Positions 54,634 through 64,000 of a DNA stretch of 64,000 nucleotides are shown in pieces; position 1 is the stretch's first letter, and each line of letters begins with the position of its first letter. Source of the DNA: a virus; IMG/VR virus record IMGVR_UViG_3300003267_000132, positions 1 through 64,000 of that record. One strand, 5' to 3'. A program made the position numbers and the translations under genes. Under the pieces are notes generated by a model, which was not told the origin of the DNA, made no database searches, and saw only the letters and a program-made list of their open reading frames with translations.

Positions 54634-55215
54634 CTACTCGCCCGTCGCCAGCGCCAGGAACTCGCTCCGGCAGCGGGCGTCTTCGTAGAAGCACCCGCGC
54701 AGGGTGCTGGTCACCGTGGGTGCGATGCGGCGCACGCCGCGGACCGCCATGCAGGAGTGGGTCGCCTTGACGACGACTCCGACACCCGCGGCGTCGACGT
54801 GGGTCGCCAGCGCATCCGCGATCTGGACCGTCATCCGCTCCTGCACCTGGAGCCGGTGGGCGAAGACGTCGACCAGCCGCGCCAGCTTCGACAGCCCGAC
54901 GACGCGACCGCGCGGCACGTACCCGATGGCGGCCGTGCCCGTGAAGGGCAGAACGTGATGTTCGCAAAGGCTGGCGAACTCGATGCCCTGGACGACGACC
55001 ATCTCGTCGTACTCGCACTCGAACGTCGCACCCAGGACGTCGGCGGGGTCCTGGAGCATCCCCTTGGTCATTTCCCGCCAGGCCCGCGCCACTCGCTCGG
55101 GGGTGTCGCGCAGGCCGTCGCGCTTCGGGTCTTCCCCGATGGAGTGCAGCAGATCGATCACGGCAGCTTCGGCGAAGGGGTAGTCGAATCGGTCCTCTGC
55201 GGGGCTGGCGGTCAC
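54634..55215 (-). CDS. folE: GTP cyclohydrolase I
   Basis: 193 aa from a GTG. EGHDRDTPERVARAWREM-like LRDTPERVARAWREMTKG, the zinc motif SLCEHHVLPF (C84, H86-H87), YVPRGRVVGLSKLARLVD and SCMAVRGV (C155) match type I FolE. It converts GTP to 7,8-dihydroneopterin triphosphate, the first step to 7-cyano-7-deazaguanine. Found with queD, queE, queC and a DpdA homologue in the same window. Confidence 0.93.
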   Translation of the reverse strand: MTASPAEDRFDYPFAEAAVIDLLHSIGEDPKRDGLRDTPERVARAWREMTKGMLQDPADVLGATFECEYDEMVVVQGIEFASLCEHHVLPFTGTAAIGYVPRGRVVGLSKLARLVDVFAHRLQVQERMTVQIADALATHVDAAGVGVVVKATHSCMAVRGVRRIAPTVTSTLRGCFYEDARCRSEFLALATGE

Positions 55216-55772
55216 AGTTCGTCCGTTCCGTCGACTGCCCGATAGATGGCCTGCGCCCACAACGCGTCGCCCATTGCGGTGTGCCGGGGGAACCGGTCAG
55301 GGTCGACGCCGAGGTACTTCGACAGTTCGTCCGAGTCCCACGGCAGCTGCGGTTCCTGGCCCCGCGCCCGCATGTAACCGACCGCCAGGGCTTCCACGTC
55401 GATGATGTGGTAATGCCAGGACGGCACTTGGTCGTGCTTGTAGAGCAAGCGACGGAGCCGTTCCTCGTCGAAGGACACGACCGCTCCCGCCAGATGAACA
55501 CCGTGGGTGAGTTCCGCGAAGTCGAGAGCGAAGTCCGCAGGGTCGGTGATCGGGGTGGTCACCTTCCCTTCGTCGGGTTGGTTGTTCCCCCAGGGGTGAC
55601 GGTCGTGGTAGCCGCCGATCGAGAGCGCCACCGGGTCGGCGCGGTCGAGCCGTTTGATCGGCAGCCACCAGTGCCGCGGGTTGTCATCGATCACCAGCGC
55701 GACTTCGTAGATCTCGTGGACGTGCGCCAGCAGCCCCGTCGTTTCGGTGTCGACGAACGCGATCTTGCTCAC
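55212..55772 (-). CDS. DEDD-type 3'-5' exonuclease
   Basis: 186 aa from a GTG. ExoI motif FVDTETTGL (D8, E10), ExoII region with VVSFDEERL (about 100), and ExoIII-type HTAMGDALWAQ (H164, D169) place it in the DnaQ-like DEDDh group. It degrades DNA or RNA ends; a proofreading or repair role is possible. Coupled to folE and to a zinc-ribbon gene. Confidence 0.8.
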   Translation of the reverse strand: MSKIAFVDTETTGLLAHVHEIYEVALVIDDNPRHWWLPIKRLDRADPVALSIGGYHDRHPWGNNQPDEGKVTTPITDPADFALDFAELTHGVHLAGAVVSFDEERLRRLLYKHDQVPSWHYHIIDVEALAVGYMRARGQEPQLPWDSDELSKYLGVDPDRFPRHTAMGDALWAQAIYRAVDGTDEL

Positions 55773-56767: not shown

Positions 56768-57394
56768 TCAGACGCCCAGCGTTGGCGACCACAGATGCCG
56801 GTTCGTGTCGAGGTGCTGCAACCAGCCGATCAGCTTGGGCAGATTCACGTCGGGACCGAATCCGGTGTAGTTGCCGTCCGCCGAGTCGAACAGTGAAAGC
56901 GACGCGGCGCGCAGGCGGCGAAACGAGTTGACCCGGCCCATGTGAACCCACTTGTTCCGTTCGCACGCTTGGTCGGCCAGCCGATAGGCGTCTTCGGACA
57001 GCTTCCAACGGGTCGTCCCGCCGATGAACAAGCAGTCGAACTCGTCCCAGGGTGGGTCAGTCAGTCCGTCCTGAGCGACGAGCGCGGCGCGGAACCCGTG
57101 GTCGCGGAGCAGCGGCAAGACTGGTTCGGCGACCGTCCAGGTGGCGGCGGGGTCAGCCAGCCGGTCGGGGGCGGTGATGAACAGCGCATCGCGTGGGAAC
57201 GGGTCGAGCCACGCAAGATACTGCCCCAGGTCGAAGGAGTCCGGTTTGGTGAAGCAGCCAGTGTCCGCCGCCCACGCCGTGTACGTCGTCGTGTCGGGTC
57301 TGCCCCAACGGGCCGGGGTCAGCATCACGCCGATCCCGTGCCGACGGTACAGAGCGGCGCGGTCTTCGGTCGGCGGCGTCGCGAGATAGATCAT
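56768..57394 (-). CDS. dpdA: DpdA-like DNA guanine transglycosylase (TGT family)
   Basis: 208 aa from MIYLATPPTEDRAAL, overlapping the queC stop. The TGT-like phage DpdA group is recognised by ATPP, GVMLTPARWG, WAADTGCF with Asp44 as the likely nucleophile or general base, VAQDG (108-110) and IGGTTRWK (124-131), HMGRVNS (151-157) and SADGN. It would exchange selected guanines in phage DNA for the 7-deazaguanine base made by folE, queD, queE and queC, protecting DNA from host restriction. The base inserted cannot be known from sequence alone. Confidence 0.8.
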   Translation of the reverse strand: MIYLATPPTEDRAALYRRHGIGVMLTPARWGRPDTTTYTAWAADTGCFTKPDSFDLGQYLAWLDPFPRDALFITAPDRLADPAATWTVAEPVLPLLRDHGFRAALVAQDGLTDPPWDEFDCLFIGGTTRWKLSEDAYRLADQACERNKWVHMGRVNSFRRLRAASLSLFDSADGNYTGFGPDVNLPKLIGWLQHLDTNRHLWSPTLGV

Positions 57395-57951
57395 GCGAGC
57401 GCCCGCGCACGCTCGGTGCAGGCCAGACAGGTCAGGCACGGCGAAGTGCCGTGCCCGTAACACGACCAGGTCTGGTCAAGCGGCGCTCCCAGCGCGCGAC
57501 CAAGCTCGACGACCTTGCGCTTGCCGAAGTCCAGGAACGGCGTCCACAACCACACCTTTCCGTCGGTCGCGACCCGCAGGACTTCGTTCATCGCTTCGAT
57601 GAACTTCGGGCGGCAGTCGGGGAACAGCGCGGCGTCGTCGGCGTGGGGTGAGAAGCCGACCGCGACCGCGCCGACCTGCAAGGCATGCGCCGCGGCAAGA
57701 GAGACCAGGATGGCGTTGCGGTTCGGAAATATCAGGTCGTCGGGCACCCCGAACGTGCCGCTGACTTTGACTTCGTCGTACCAGACCCCCGCTTCCTTGG
57801 CGATGACGTAGGCGGCTTCCAACTCCTTCACATGGGGCTGTCCGTAGTCGACACCGAACGCCTGCACGGCATCGAACTGCGTGCGCGCCAGGTACAGCGC
57901 CACCGTCGAGTCGATGCCGCCGCTGAACAGGATCAGGCACTTAGACGCCAC
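57391..57951 (-). CDS. queC: 7-cyano-7-deazaguanine synthase QueC
   Basis: 186 aa, GTG start. The PP-loop FSGGIDSTVALYLA (9-22), FPNRNAIL for the PGRN-type motif, VGFSPHADD and the zinc motif C164 with C172, C175 and C178 (PCLTCLACTER). It turns 7-carboxy-7-deazaguanine to preQ0 using ATP and ammonia. Overlaps queE by 11 bases and the transglycosylase by 4. Confidence 0.92.
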   Translation of the reverse strand: MASKCLILFSGGIDSTVALYLARTQFDAVQAFGVDYGQPHVKELEAAYVIAKEAGVWYDEVKVSGTFGVPDDLIFPNRNAILVSLAAAHALQVGAVAVGFSPHADDAALFPDCRPKFIEAMNEVLRVATDGKVWLWTPFLDFGKRKVVELGRALGAPLDQTWSCYGHGTSPCLTCLACTERARALA

Positions 57952-58666
57952 GGCGATCTCCCCACAACATGACGTGCTGACGTCCCGACAGATTCCATCC
58001 TCGCCCGATCACCCACGGCGCGAGTTCCTTCGCGCGTGCCGTAAGCGTGTCCGCGTCGGTCCCGGCGGGCATCACCCACACAGTCTCCGGGCACAAGCCA
58101 TGCACCTTCGCGAGCACCGCAATCTCGTCAAGGTCGGACACATCTGCGGCGACGAACTTGAAGCATGCCTTCCCGCGGGTAGCCAGACTTACGAATCGGT
58201 CCAATGCCTCGGGGTTGTAGCGCGCATGCGGATCGCATCCGGAGTTCGACAGCTTCGGTGACACGTTGAACCGAGTCACCCAAGGCACCAAGTTAGGCCC
58301 TGGGATTCGGGTCCCGTTCGTTTCGATCTCGACTTCGGTGAACGCCGCCAGACGAGGGGCGAGTTCCAGCAGGGCGTTCTGCTGGATCATCGGTTCCCCT
58401 CCGGTGATGACGACCAGCCCTACCGGGCGGACCTGGCTGACGACTTCGTCGACGGTCATGCCATGCAGTTCTTTGGCGGGGTCCTGCGCAGGCCCGATCT
58501 TGCCCCGCCAGTCCCACGTGTACGGCGTGTCGCACTTCCACCCCGCGCCACTACCGGATCCACAGTCGAGGTTGCAGCGACCCAGCCGCAGGAAGAACGC
58601 GCGGCGACCCGCTGACGGGCCTTCGCCCTGGATCGAGTCGAACATCTCATTGACGACCAGCTTCAT
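57941..58666 (-). CDS. queE: 7-carboxy-7-deazaguanine synthase QueE (radical SAM)
   Basis: 241 aa. The radical SAM cluster Cys are C31 and C35 (CNLDC) and C45 (KCDTPYTWDW), with nine residues between the second and third, instead of the usual CX3CX2C. ITGGEPMIQ (88-95) is the GGEP SAM-binding motif. The later RFNVSPKLSNSG is the strand that closes the barrel. It rearranges carboxy-tetrahydropterin to 7-carboxy-7-deazaguanine. Overlaps the 86-aa gene. Confidence 0.9.
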   Translation of the reverse strand: MKLVVNEMFDSIQGEGPSAGRRAFFLRLGRCNLDCGSGSGAGWKCDTPYTWDWRGKIGPAQDPAKELHGMTVDEVVSQVRPVGLVVITGGEPMIQQNALLELAPRLAAFTEVEIETNGTRIPGPNLVPWVTRFNVSPKLSNSGCDPHARYNPEALDRFVSLATRGKACFKFVAADVSDLDEIAVLAKVHGLCPETVWVMPAGTDADTLTARAKELAPWVIGRGWNLSGRQHVMLWGDRRGV

Positions 58667-58923
58667 GCGTCCGCCTTGTCGAGCAGGAGCGAAAGCGCCT
58701 GGATCAGTTCGGTATGGACCGTGGCCCCGAGCGGCAGGTTGGCCAGTTCGCCGTACTCGCGGACCTGCCACACGACCCGGGGTGTCGTGCGCAGCGACGG
58801 CGAGGTGTTGCGGTCCTTGGCCTCTCGGCGCGCCGCGGCGCGTGACTGCATCGGCTCGACCTCCAGTACCTTGCCAGTGTCGAGGTTGACTTGCAGCAGC
58901 ACGGCACCGGGCAGATCGGTCAC
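58663..58923 (-). CDS. Unknown 86-aa protein within the preQ0 operon
   Basis: A beta-strand N-terminal part (GAVLLQVNLDTGKVLEVEPM) and a helical C-terminal half (ELIQALSLLLDKAD). No known motif. It lies between queD and queE with 4-base overlaps on both sides, so it is translated in the same operon. It might bind deazaguanine-pathway enzymes or phage DNA; this is an inference from position. Confidence 0.6.
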   Translation of the reverse strand: MTDLPGAVLLQVNLDTGKVLEVEPMQSRAAARREAKDRNTSPSLRTTPRVVWQVREYGELANLPLGATVHTELIQALSLLLDKADA

Positions 58924-59357
58924 GGTCGATACGCCGCGCTATTGACGGCGGTCTCCTGAATGTGCACCGACTCGACGAACGCTTCGGCGACGACCAAGCC
59001 GTTGTCGGTCATGCGGTACAGCATCTCGTCTACCCGGTCGTAGAGCAACCGCGCCAGCCCCTCGGTCGTCGGGTCAACGTGGAGCCGGGTGACAGACGAC
59101 CCATGCTGCTCCAGCGGGTCAGCGACCGGGTCGAGTTCATTGAGCAGGATGCTGTGATCCCACTCGGAGTCGAGCATTCCCCGGACCTCTCGCTTGAGCG
59201 GTCCGAAGTCCACGATCATTCCGTACCTGTCGACATCGGGTGCCGCGACGGTGACTTCCGCCAGGAACGAGTGGCCGTGGACGTTGTGGCACTTCCCGCT
59301 GGTCAGCCACAGCCGGTGCGCCGACTCGAAATTGTGCTTGATCGACACCCGGTACAT
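58920..59357 (-). CDS. queD: 6-carboxy-5,6,7,8-tetrahydropterin synthase QueD
   Basis: 145 aa. H14 (FESAHRL), C23 and H27, H29 (CHNVHGHSF) with the zinc ligands, D67 and H68 (WDHSILLN), PTTEGLA with E99, and ESVHIQET near the C-terminus. It makes carboxy-tetrahydropterin from dihydroneopterin triphosphate. First gene of the queD to dpdA operon, with the recurrent element just upstream. Confidence 0.92.
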   Translation of the reverse strand: MYRVSIKHNFESAHRLWLTSGKCHNVHGHSFLAEVTVAAPDVDRYGMIVDFGPLKREVRGMLDSEWDHSILLNELDPVADPLEQHGSSVTRLHVDPTTEGLARLLYDRVDEMLYRMTDNGLVVAEAFVESVHIQETAVNSAAYRP

Positions 59358-59366
59358 GCGGTGCAG

Positions 59367-62461: not shown

Positions 62462-62491
62462 ATGCTAATGCGGCTTATGCCGTCCGTTCAA
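62462..62491 (-). promoter_or_regulatory. Promoter-like site with recurrent element, copy 7
   Basis: Minus-strand TTGAAC (62486-62491) with a TTAGCA or TAGCAT hexamer 17-18 bases downstream; plus-strand gctaatgcggctta (62464-62477). It overlaps the 3' end of the HAD-QueC gene and lies before the gene at 62428. Confidence 0.5.
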
Positions 62492-63648
62492 GTGGTGGAG
62501 CGCAGAGATTCGATGACCGCCAGCGTCGACCGGCAGCGCGCCGGGCTGTACCGCGAGTAGTCACCGGTGTCGAGCGCGGAACGCATCAGCGGCTCGTACT
62601 TCTCGATGTGCGGGGTCCAGTCGGCACCGTCGAACTCTGGCGTCGGGACGCCGCAGGCGGTGAAGGCGACGAACTTGCGGAAGCACGTCTGGCACTTCCC
62701 GCACGCCCGCGCGAACTCGTCGAAGCACGACTTGGTGTTGCGCAGCAGGTCGATCTGGCCGCGCGCCTGCCACCAACGGACCAAGTCGACCTTGTCCATG
62801 CCGCGCAACGGCGACATCAGATGAACGTCGTAGCCGAGCACGGTCAGCAGATGCTGCGTCGTCAGCATGAAGCGGGCGCTCTTGTCGCCCCCGATCGCGG
62901 GCGTCTCCCCGGCCAGGTTCCCCAACCAGAGTTCGCCCCACCACCCAGCCGCTTGCATGTACCGCGCCACCGTGAAGATCACGGTCGCGTTGCGGCCCGG
63001 AATGATGTGTTTGAAGCGGCGGGGCAAGTGCGTCCCGGTCAGCCACACCGGCTGCCTGCACAGTGACGACGCTGCTTCCAGTTCGGCGGCGGCATACTCC
63101 TGACCGACGTCGACATAGACCGGGGCCGGGTCCAGTCCCGCCTCGATGGCCATCCACCACAGCGTCGTGGAGTCCATGCCCCCCGTCACCGGAATGACGA
63201 CGCGGTACTTGTCGGCGCGACGCCGTGGCACCAGGTCGGGGTTTTCCGGGACGGCGTCCTGGTCGATTGCCCAGTGGCTTGCCATCGTTCCGTCACCGAG
63301 CGCACCCAGCGGGTCGTCGTGTTCCTTCCATGCGATCAGCGCGTCGAGTGCTTCCAGGCAGGGGAACAGACCGGCGTCGTCGATGAACAGATCGGCGGGC
63401 GGCTTCGCTCCGCACGCGACCTGGTGGAAGTGGAGTTGCCGTTCCCGGCACCACTGTTCAATGGCGGGGCCATGCGACACCGGGCGGGACGAGTGGACGA
63501 CGACGTTCCACCCGCGTGCCGCGGCGTCGTTGACCAGATCGATCATGTCCCAGTTGGCTTGACCCGGTTCAGTCGACCGCGTGTCGCGACAGAGCGTCCC
63601 GTCGAAGTCCACTGCCAGCGTGCGGCGGTCGTAGTGGTTGCGGATCAT
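62488..63648 (-). CDS. HAD phosphatase fused to a QueC-like PP-loop ATPase
   Basis: 386 aa from MIRNHYDRR, ATG overlapping the previous stop. Residues 1-110 are an HAD-type phosphatase: DFDGTL (D14, D16), HSSRP (S53/S54), K82, and DLFIDD (D86, D90) as motif IV. Residues 145-386 are a QueC-like synthase: IPVTGGMDSTTLWW (155-160), GQEYAAAELEAA, PGRNATVIF, and Cys C308 with C316, C319 and C322 (CGKCQTC). It is distinct from queC at 57.4 kb. It may modify or recycle a deazaguanine intermediate or nucleotide; unknown. Confidence 0.8.
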   Translation of the reverse strand: MIRNHYDRRTLAVDFDGTLCRDTRSTEPGQANWDMIDLVNDAAARGWNVVVHSSRPVSHGPAIEQWCRERQLHFHQVACGAKPPADLFIDDAGLFPCLEALDALIAWKEHDDPLGALGDGTMASHWAIDQDAVPENPDLVPRRRADKYRVVIPVTGGMDSTTLWWMAIEAGLDPAPVYVDVGQEYAAAELEAASSLCRQPVWLTGTHLPRRFKHIIPGRNATVIFTVARYMQAAGWWGELWLGNLAGETPAIGGDKSARFMLTTQHLLTVLGYDVHLMSPLRGMDKVDLVRWWQARGQIDLLRNTKSCFDEFARACGKCQTCFRKFVAFTACGVPTPEFDGADWTPHIEKYEPLMRSALDTGDYSRYSPARCRSTLAVIESLRSTT

Positions 63649-63713
63649 TCCCATGACCAATGACCCTTCGGATGCCGCGGCAGGCGGGCACAGGGGCGCA
63701 CAGGCGGTGTCAT
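63645..63713 (-). CDS. Coupled 22-aa ORF
   Basis: A 22-codon frame, MTPPVRPCARLPRHPKGHWSWE, whose ATG overlaps the preceding stop and whose stop overlaps the next ATG. Might encode a real microprotein or only serve translational coupling to the HAD-QueC gene. Confidence 0.35.
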   Translation of the reverse strand: MTPPVRPCARLPRHPKGHWSWE

Positions 63714-63991
63714 TCCTGCTCGGCCGCGACCTTGGACGCCTGGACGAGATGCGGGGGATATCCGTCGACGATGTAGATCTTCGGGCCGGTGAGGTACCGC
63801 ATCGTGTCGGAGTAGAACGTCGACAGGTACAGCTTCAGACCCTGCGCCGCCAGCCCCAGGTCCGGGGTTTCGGTGTGGACCCCGCGGCTCCCCCGCGAGT
63901 CGGCCAGATATACGCGCAGGTGATCCGGCTCGACCATGCCACGCGGCGGGCCGATGGGACCATGCCGTCGCCGCAACCACTGTTCGAACAT
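63710..63991 (-). CDS. Hypothetical protein at window edge
   Basis: 93 aa, first ATG at 63991 near the right edge, so an upstream start cannot be excluded. Segments RVYLADSRGSRG and SDTMRYLTGPKIYIVDGYPPH suggest an alpha/beta fold. No family recognised. Confidence 0.5.
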   Translation of the reverse strand: MFEQWLRRRHGPIGPPRGMVEPDHLRVYLADSRGSRGVHTETPDLGLAAQGLKLYLSTFYSDTMRYLTGPKIYIVDGYPPHLVQASKVAAEQE

Positions 63992-64000
63992 CAGCCAGGC

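Follow-up and report, generated by a model that had tools for sequence, protein, structure and literature searches.

We identified a phage protein that joins a HAD phosphatase domain to a QueC-like domain in a single chain. It is encoded in a 64,000-base stretch of viral DNA (hereafter the window), which forms the first part of a 66,303-base viral record that we also read past the window's edge. The fusion is real, comprising one 386-residue frame in which both halves have intact motifs (Table 1), and because its two parts repeatedly travel together in the DNA-modification clusters of other phages, it probably helps to build a not-yet-described guanine derivative for phage DNA. As a tentative reading, held with less than even confidence, we propose a bifunctional enzyme in which an ATP-dependent ligase would join 7-carboxy-7-deazaguanine (CDG, the QueE product) to an amine other than ammonia, and the HAD domain would remove a phosphate from the donor or the product.

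Table 1. Coordinates of the fusion gene, its domains and motifs, and neighboring genes in the window.
Feature	Position	Strand	Details
HAD-QueC-like fusion protein	62488..63648	(-)	386 aa; 388 aa from SD-preceded ATG 63654
HAD phosphatase domain, about aa 1-110	63319..63648	(-)	motif I D14/D16, II S53-S54-R55, III K82, IV D90-D91
QueC-like (DK-type) domain, aa 146-386	62491..63213	(-)	TGGMDS 155-160, VDVGQEYAAAE 179-189, IPGRN 216-220, GGDK 253-256, Cys4, C-terminal helical extension
GGDKSARF, DK signature replacing YPDC	62869..62892	(-)	
Cys4 zinc-site motif SCFDEFARACGKCQTC, aa 307-322	62683..62730	(-)	C(x)7CxxCxxC
dpdA 3' part	63710..64000	(-)	whole gene 63710-64741 of contig; DpdA HMM built here 7.3e-62; phrog_887 4.3e-48
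queD	58923..59360	(-)	PF01242 1e-26
queE	57944..58666	(-)	phrog_2076 8.8e-51
Gene with canonical QueC motifs	57391..57951	(-)	SGGIDS, YGQPHVKE, FPNRN, FPDC, Cys4; PF06508 1.4e-45
Second TGT-like protein (phrog_15826)	56768..57463	(-)	45% identical to Arthrobacter phage Sonali gp81
folE (GTP cyclohydrolase I)	54634..55260	(-)	PF01227 1.3e-69

The fusion occupies one unbroken minus-strand open reading frame (62488-63660) with candidate starts at TTG 63660, ATG 63654 and ATG 63648, the latter two being likely. Since the sequence GAAGGG precedes ATG 63654 by 9 nt, the N-terminus may be MGMIRN. The coding score exceeded that of all other predicted genes from 52 to 63.6 kb, GC3 stood at 0.82 for the HAD part, 0.77 for the linker and 0.89 for the QueC part, and the strong coding signal showed no break at the HAD/QueC junction. 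The first-pass annotation had described one chain with full HAD motifs, the QueC PP-loop and the Cys cluster, all of which we could locate, and had raised the scenario of two genes joined by an assembly error. An artefactual join, or an inactive protein, would be in keeping with a gene known in its exact form from one contig and with no close relative of the whole protein: neither tblastn of phages at 1e-5 nor viral scans with window peptides returned a homologue of the whole architecture. We nevertheless regard this explanation as highly improbable, given the continuous coding signal, a position after ParB and DpdA that is the usual place for its QueC relatives, a fusion of opposite order elsewhere (L024/L025), and the retention of all catalytic motifs of the HAD and the PP-loop.

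The N-terminal half is a capless HAD domain with all four motifs (VDFDGT, aa 13-18; HSSRP, 52-56; K82; FIDD, 88-91), in which D14, D16, the motif II Ser, R55, K82, D90 and D91 were invariant or nearly so across 10 domains. It matched the HAD family phrog_1238 at aa 4-95 (1.3e-13) and scored 18.9 bits versus 165 for the NCBIfam BT0820 equivalog, indicating a related protein that is not an equivalog. In a separate structure prediction (core pLDDT 82-97), the best structural match was BT0820 (2obb), with 9iqw among the weaker ones; 9iqw was also the second-best sequence-profile match and is, according to its PDB title only, phage HY126 AfhF, a D-arabinose 1,5-diphosphate phosphatase. BT0820-type capless HADs including AfhF, which is likewise phage-encoded, resemble the fusion HAD in the four motifs, size and fold, but have no fused QueC domain. 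The distant similarity of this half to the phosphatase domains of polynucleotide kinases (phrog_415, 0.0015; T4 Pnkp) could suggest that the QueC half works on a deazaguanine that is part of a nucleotide or of DNA, amidating it there, with the HAD acting as a nucleotidase or end phosphatase, and the deaminase and phosphoribosyltransferase in two of the clusters described below (L018 and L054) would fit such a role. However, BT0820 and, in the sequence-profile search, the sugar-phosphate phosphatase match the HAD best, and the adjoining DpdA is expected to insert a free base, which makes this alternative unlikely.

Judged by its motifs and model scores, the C-terminal half is not an ordinary QueC. 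Its score against the QueC equivalog TIGR00364 was 47.5 bits, far under the 150.3 cut-off. The PP-loop TGGMDS retains the SGGxDS motif with Thr for the first-position Ser, VPxRN is present as IPGRN (aa 216-220), and the zinc-site motif is present as C308(x)7C316xxC319xxC322 instead of the canonical C(x)8CxxCxxC, a spacing common to the window queC and Sonali QueC. The fusion thus resembles canonical QueC (PF06508, TIGR00364; cluster 1 of PMC13329287), which works with QueD and QueE, in the PP-loop, PxRN, the conserved Asp and Lys and the Cys4 site, but differs from it in the fused HAD, the C-terminal extension and the loss of two motifs: YxQxHxxE (Y35) is replaced by VGQEYAAAE and YPDC (aromatic residue 131) by GGDK (aa 253-256). 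The first-pass annotation had also considered that this half might merely resemble a tRNA or NAD synthase. Contrary to that possibility, PF06508 was the sole Pfam family above its cut-off (51.4 bits; cut-off 22), no NAD, tRNA or GMP synthase-type PP-loop family matched the fusion in Pfam at E up to 1, and the top structural matches were QatC, Cap9 and QueC.

The predicted structure of the QueC half (pLDDT mostly 90-97) matched QatC with Z 17.6, Cap9 with Z 17.0 (2.4 Å, 174 residues) and QueC with 15.7, where matches within 1 Z of each other are tied; in the region of the C-terminal extension QatC remained alignable, giving an alignment across 227 residues. Foldseek placed Cap9 first, and Cap9 was also the best single-sequence PDB match of the fusion (2.8e-5). 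An alignment of the phage clade to which the domain belongs (DK clade, below), used as a profile against the PDB, returned QueC first and then Cap9, so sequence does not single out Cap9. Cap9, the amide-forming enzyme of type IV CBASS, shares with the fusion a close fold, the absence of the QueC His, a short stretch before PxRN and the Q(x)5E spacing of its Y/FxQ(x)5E variant motif, the fusion having V where Cap9 has Y/F; it differs in keeping the YxDC substrate motif, which is GGDK in the fusion, and in sitting with a CD-NTase, whereas the fusion has a HAD half and sits with DpdA. No CD-NTase was seen among the annotated neighbors of the fusion. QatC (qatABCD) is comparable in fold, in its N- and C-terminal extensions and in its remodelled substrate pocket, but has Thr in place of both Tyr and Asp, and the PADLOC QatC model did not match the fusion; only the PADLOC QueC model did. 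The phage Gat-QueC proteins (dG+ phages, e.g. 9g) likewise combine a QueC domain with another enzyme in a DpdA-type DNA-modification cluster, although their partner is an amidotransferase, not a phosphatase.

Two aspects go beyond the earlier reading, namely the separate phage clade of the QueC half and the gene directly adjoining the fusion. The first-pass annotation had placed the fusion near a preQ0 DNA-modification operon; the link to DNA modification holds, but the nearest such gene is not part of the operon at 54-59 kb. Instead, dpdA, which lies mostly outside the window and is preceded by a ParB-like gene, ends 50 bp upstream, making the fusion a direct neighbor of DpdA and not an outlier 5 kb from the operon. 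The order ParB-DpdA-DK-QueC is common to the fusion and L011-L013. Downstream of the fusion lie small unknown genes, queD, queE, a queC with canonical motifs, the second TGT-like gene and, further on, folE. An 86-aa gene between queD and queE (58663-58923) had no Pfam or PHROGs match. The phrog_15826 protein was dropped as the main DpdA once the gene at 63710-64741 had matched the DpdA HMM at 7e-62; it overlaps queC and is very distant from the DpdA adjoining the fusion, and two distinct transglycosylases may serve base insertion in the window phage.

The normal queC previously placed about 5 kb away was borne out by the canonical-motif gene, about 4.5 kb downstream of the fusion. Its 186-aa product has all motifs in canonical form and falls just under the TIGR00364 cut-off (143.5 vs 150.3). 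With this gene present, a requirement for the fusion in making preQ0 becomes less likely; the shortness of this queC and its score just below the cut-off call for caution here. Its SGG-to-PxRN distance is 65, a Cap9-like value.

Aligned with phage relatives from a profile scan, the QueC half fell in a distinct group, which we refer to as the DK clade, with xxDK in place of YPDC and mostly Tyr at the YxQxHxxE His; a few members have DQ or DS instead of DK. The alignment adds Q(x)5E spacing and a short PP-loop-to-PxRN stretch to this signature: from SGG to PxRN we counted 57-72 residues in six DK proteins and 65 in Cap9, versus 82-87 in four canonical phage QueCs. In a 63-protein tree the DK proteins formed one side of a branch with support of 94/77 (97/82 without L016), the window fusion grouped with L011, L012 and L013 at 99/98, NCTB (DST) fell inside the clade and Cap9 fell outside it; L010 is canonical by motif. 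Almost all canonical phage QueCs have an aromatic residue two positions before the Asp, and YPDC was present in 79/80 QueCs of a bacterial genome scan.

Members of the DK clade retain the Asp, PxRN, Lys and Cys4 and have lost the Tyr that stacks on deazaguanine. In E. coli QueC, this Tyr is Y131, and alanine changes at Y35 and Y131 abolish function (PMC13329287); in Cap9, the corresponding Y115 stacks on deazaguanine and the matching Asp reads the Watson-Crick edge (PMC13279940). Because this Asp is retained, a guanine-like substrate is still plausible, and we infer that a deazaguanine-type substrate may be accommodated in a changed pocket. The closeness of the Cap9 and QatC folds, and the C-terminal extension that lets QatC align so far, could alternatively point to modification of a protein, as Cap9 carries out and QatC is proposed to, perhaps directed against host deazaguanylation-based immunity. 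We consider this very unlikely, as the DK genes are located in DpdA clusters and no CD-NTase, Cap10 or QatB was noticed among their annotated neighbors.

Among 33 phage records with a DK-type protein, this was the only PF06508 member in 31, the exceptions being the window and L014. QueD and QueE were each found in 26/33 records, and the neighbors of DK-QueC, often in one operon, included DpdA (26 loci), QueE (26), FolE (23) and QueD (21); since the records are often fragments, absences are soft. PF01702 (TGT) detects none of these DpdAs, so its silence is uninformative. The record containing L014 has two tandem divergent QueC-like genes (L014:7905-9642), one with DQS for DK, and no QueD or QueE.

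As DK-QueC sits with DpdA, QueD, QueE and FolE, it appears to replace QueC in its clusters. The main rival to the ligase reading builds on this: DK-QueC would be a remodelled QueC that has kept ammonia as its substrate and supplies DpdA with ADG or preQ0, and the HAD would have an accessory role, for example removal of a phosphorylated inhibitor or adjustment of nucleotide pools. Such a role would account for DK-QueC standing in for QueC in otherwise complete FolE-QueD-QueE-DpdA clusters, for the retained Asp, PxRN, Lys and Cys4 sites, and for minimal clusters (L005, L048) with no extra enzyme between ParB and FolE. Conversely, the clade has lost two residues reported to be essential in E. coli QueC (Y35 and Y131; PMC13329287), and the window has both QueC types. 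Campylobacter phage CPt10, which reportedly replaces its dG with dADG (as cited in PMC8306585), encodes a QueC of the FPDC type that falls outside the DK clade; this weakened DK-QueC as a candidate for the ADG synthase of dADG phages. On balance, the ammonia-dependent role seems doubtful, if the most serious of the alternatives.

We then considered whether the two halves are associated elsewhere. L024/L025 have a HAD of the family seen in the window fusion, attached C-terminally to DK-QueC and in that respect opposite in order; in L036, L038, L041, L042, L054 and L063 the HAD and DK-QueC genes overlap or abut, in L017 and L018 one gene separates them, and in the Mendera type the HAD gene overlaps DK-QueC from upstream. 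With phrog_1238 as a neutral model, a HAD was linked to DK-QueC in 10 records, the window included and the Mendera type additional, and to canonical phage QueCs in 0/22 (Fisher test of 11/28 vs 0/22, p about 0.001, which ignores relatedness). Within 6 kb of bacterial QueCs, a HAD or DpdA of these families was found in 0/80 (HMM built here for the HAD). In the tree the linkage is scattered over about five distinct positions; most DK clusters are without a HAD. Because both fusion orders and both gene orders occur, these arrangements argue for a functional coupling of the HAD and DK-QueC.

Additional enzymes accompany the pair in some phages. Between DK-QueC and the HAD, L017 and L018 encode a class-V aminotransferase whose nearest families are SerC/PhnW; it is limited to these two closely related lineages. 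In general metabolism, serine synthesis uses SerC and then the HAD phosphatase SerB, a parallel that readily suggests an amine produced via a phosphorylated intermediate. A gene for a myo-inositol-phosphate synthase is next to DK-QueC in L013 and to the HAD in the Mendera type; the window's contig yielded neither this enzyme nor the SerC-like aminotransferase. Genes with weak similarity to glycosyltransferases are present in L051 and L054. A deaminase (cytidine/dCMP-like, L018:10125-10610) and a phosphoribosyltransferase-like gene (L054:9073-9495) lie inside DK-QueC/HAD clusters.

The fusion, its intact catalytic motifs, its DK membership, the repeated HAD/DK-QueC pairing and the FolE-QueD-QueE-DpdA context can be read from the sequences; from there we infer the CDG substrate, the non-ammonia amine, the phosphatase substrate, the order of steps and the DNA target. 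In the ligase reading, the QueC half would adenylate the carboxylate of CDG with ATP and pass the activated CDG to an amine other than ammonia, yielding an N-substituted 7-amido-7-deazaguanine; the HAD half would take the phosphate off the amine donor or the conjugate, and DpdA would exchange the finished base into DNA. A precedent is provided by Cap9, a QueC relative shown to join CDG to a non-ammonia amine, on a protein N-terminus (PMC11996544, PMC13279940). The features common to the DK clade and Cap9 (Q(x)5E spacing, loss of the QueC His, short SGG-to-PxRN stretch) are consistent with the ligase reading, as are the structural ranks of QatC and Cap9, slightly above QueC, and the phage sugar-phosphate phosphatase 9iqw among the HAD relatives. 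Against it, the aminotransferase is confined to two closely related lineages and missing from the window's contig, most DK clusters lack a HAD, the DK profile ranks QueC above Cap9, Cap9 does not group with the clade in the tree, and Cap9 keeps YxDC, which the DK clade does not. The first-pass annotation had suggested that the fusion may make or recycle another deazaguanine derivative, or act on a phosphorylated precursor; the comparative evidence favors this putative chemistry. Extended to the clade, and held somewhat more loosely, it is possible that a phage-specific family of QueC-derived ligases builds N-substituted 7-amido-7-deazaguanines for DNA, using phosphorylated amines that would come, in some phages, from the SerC-like aminotransferase and be dephosphorylated by the partner HAD.

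To our knowledge, the 7-deazaguanine bases described from phages are minor variants of preQ0. A pocket-remodelled QueC relative accompanied by DpdA, phosphatases and an occasional aminotransferase points to larger guanine conjugates, which could alter which restriction or defense enzymes act on phage DNA, and bears on the reuse of QueC chemistry for conjugation, as in Cap9. If correct, this would constitute an undescribed class of guanine hypermodification, two steps of which the window phage would have fused. A search of open-licence literature found no paper describing the combination of HAD and QueC, which is not proof of novelty; the main text of a 2026 survey of the QueC family mentions neither a phosphatase nor a fused protein (PMC13329287), and Hutinet 2019 (PMC6884629) describes Gat-QueC and, in the passages covered, no HAD fusion. 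The unfused HAD/DK-QueC pair is present in cultured phages, e.g. Mendera, Moby and IME-SM1 of the Stenotrophomonas Menderavirus group, where the proposal is testable by mass spectrometry.

Two further observations concern related loci. Methyltransferase-like genes adjoin DK-QueC at L011:7258-7809 and L012:3627-4274, both among the nearest relatives of the fusion. In a human gut phage, the 747-aa DpdA (L007:5632-7872) appears, by eye, to be split by an intein-like insert that spans roughly YDSMVVV to GVVVHNTTW.
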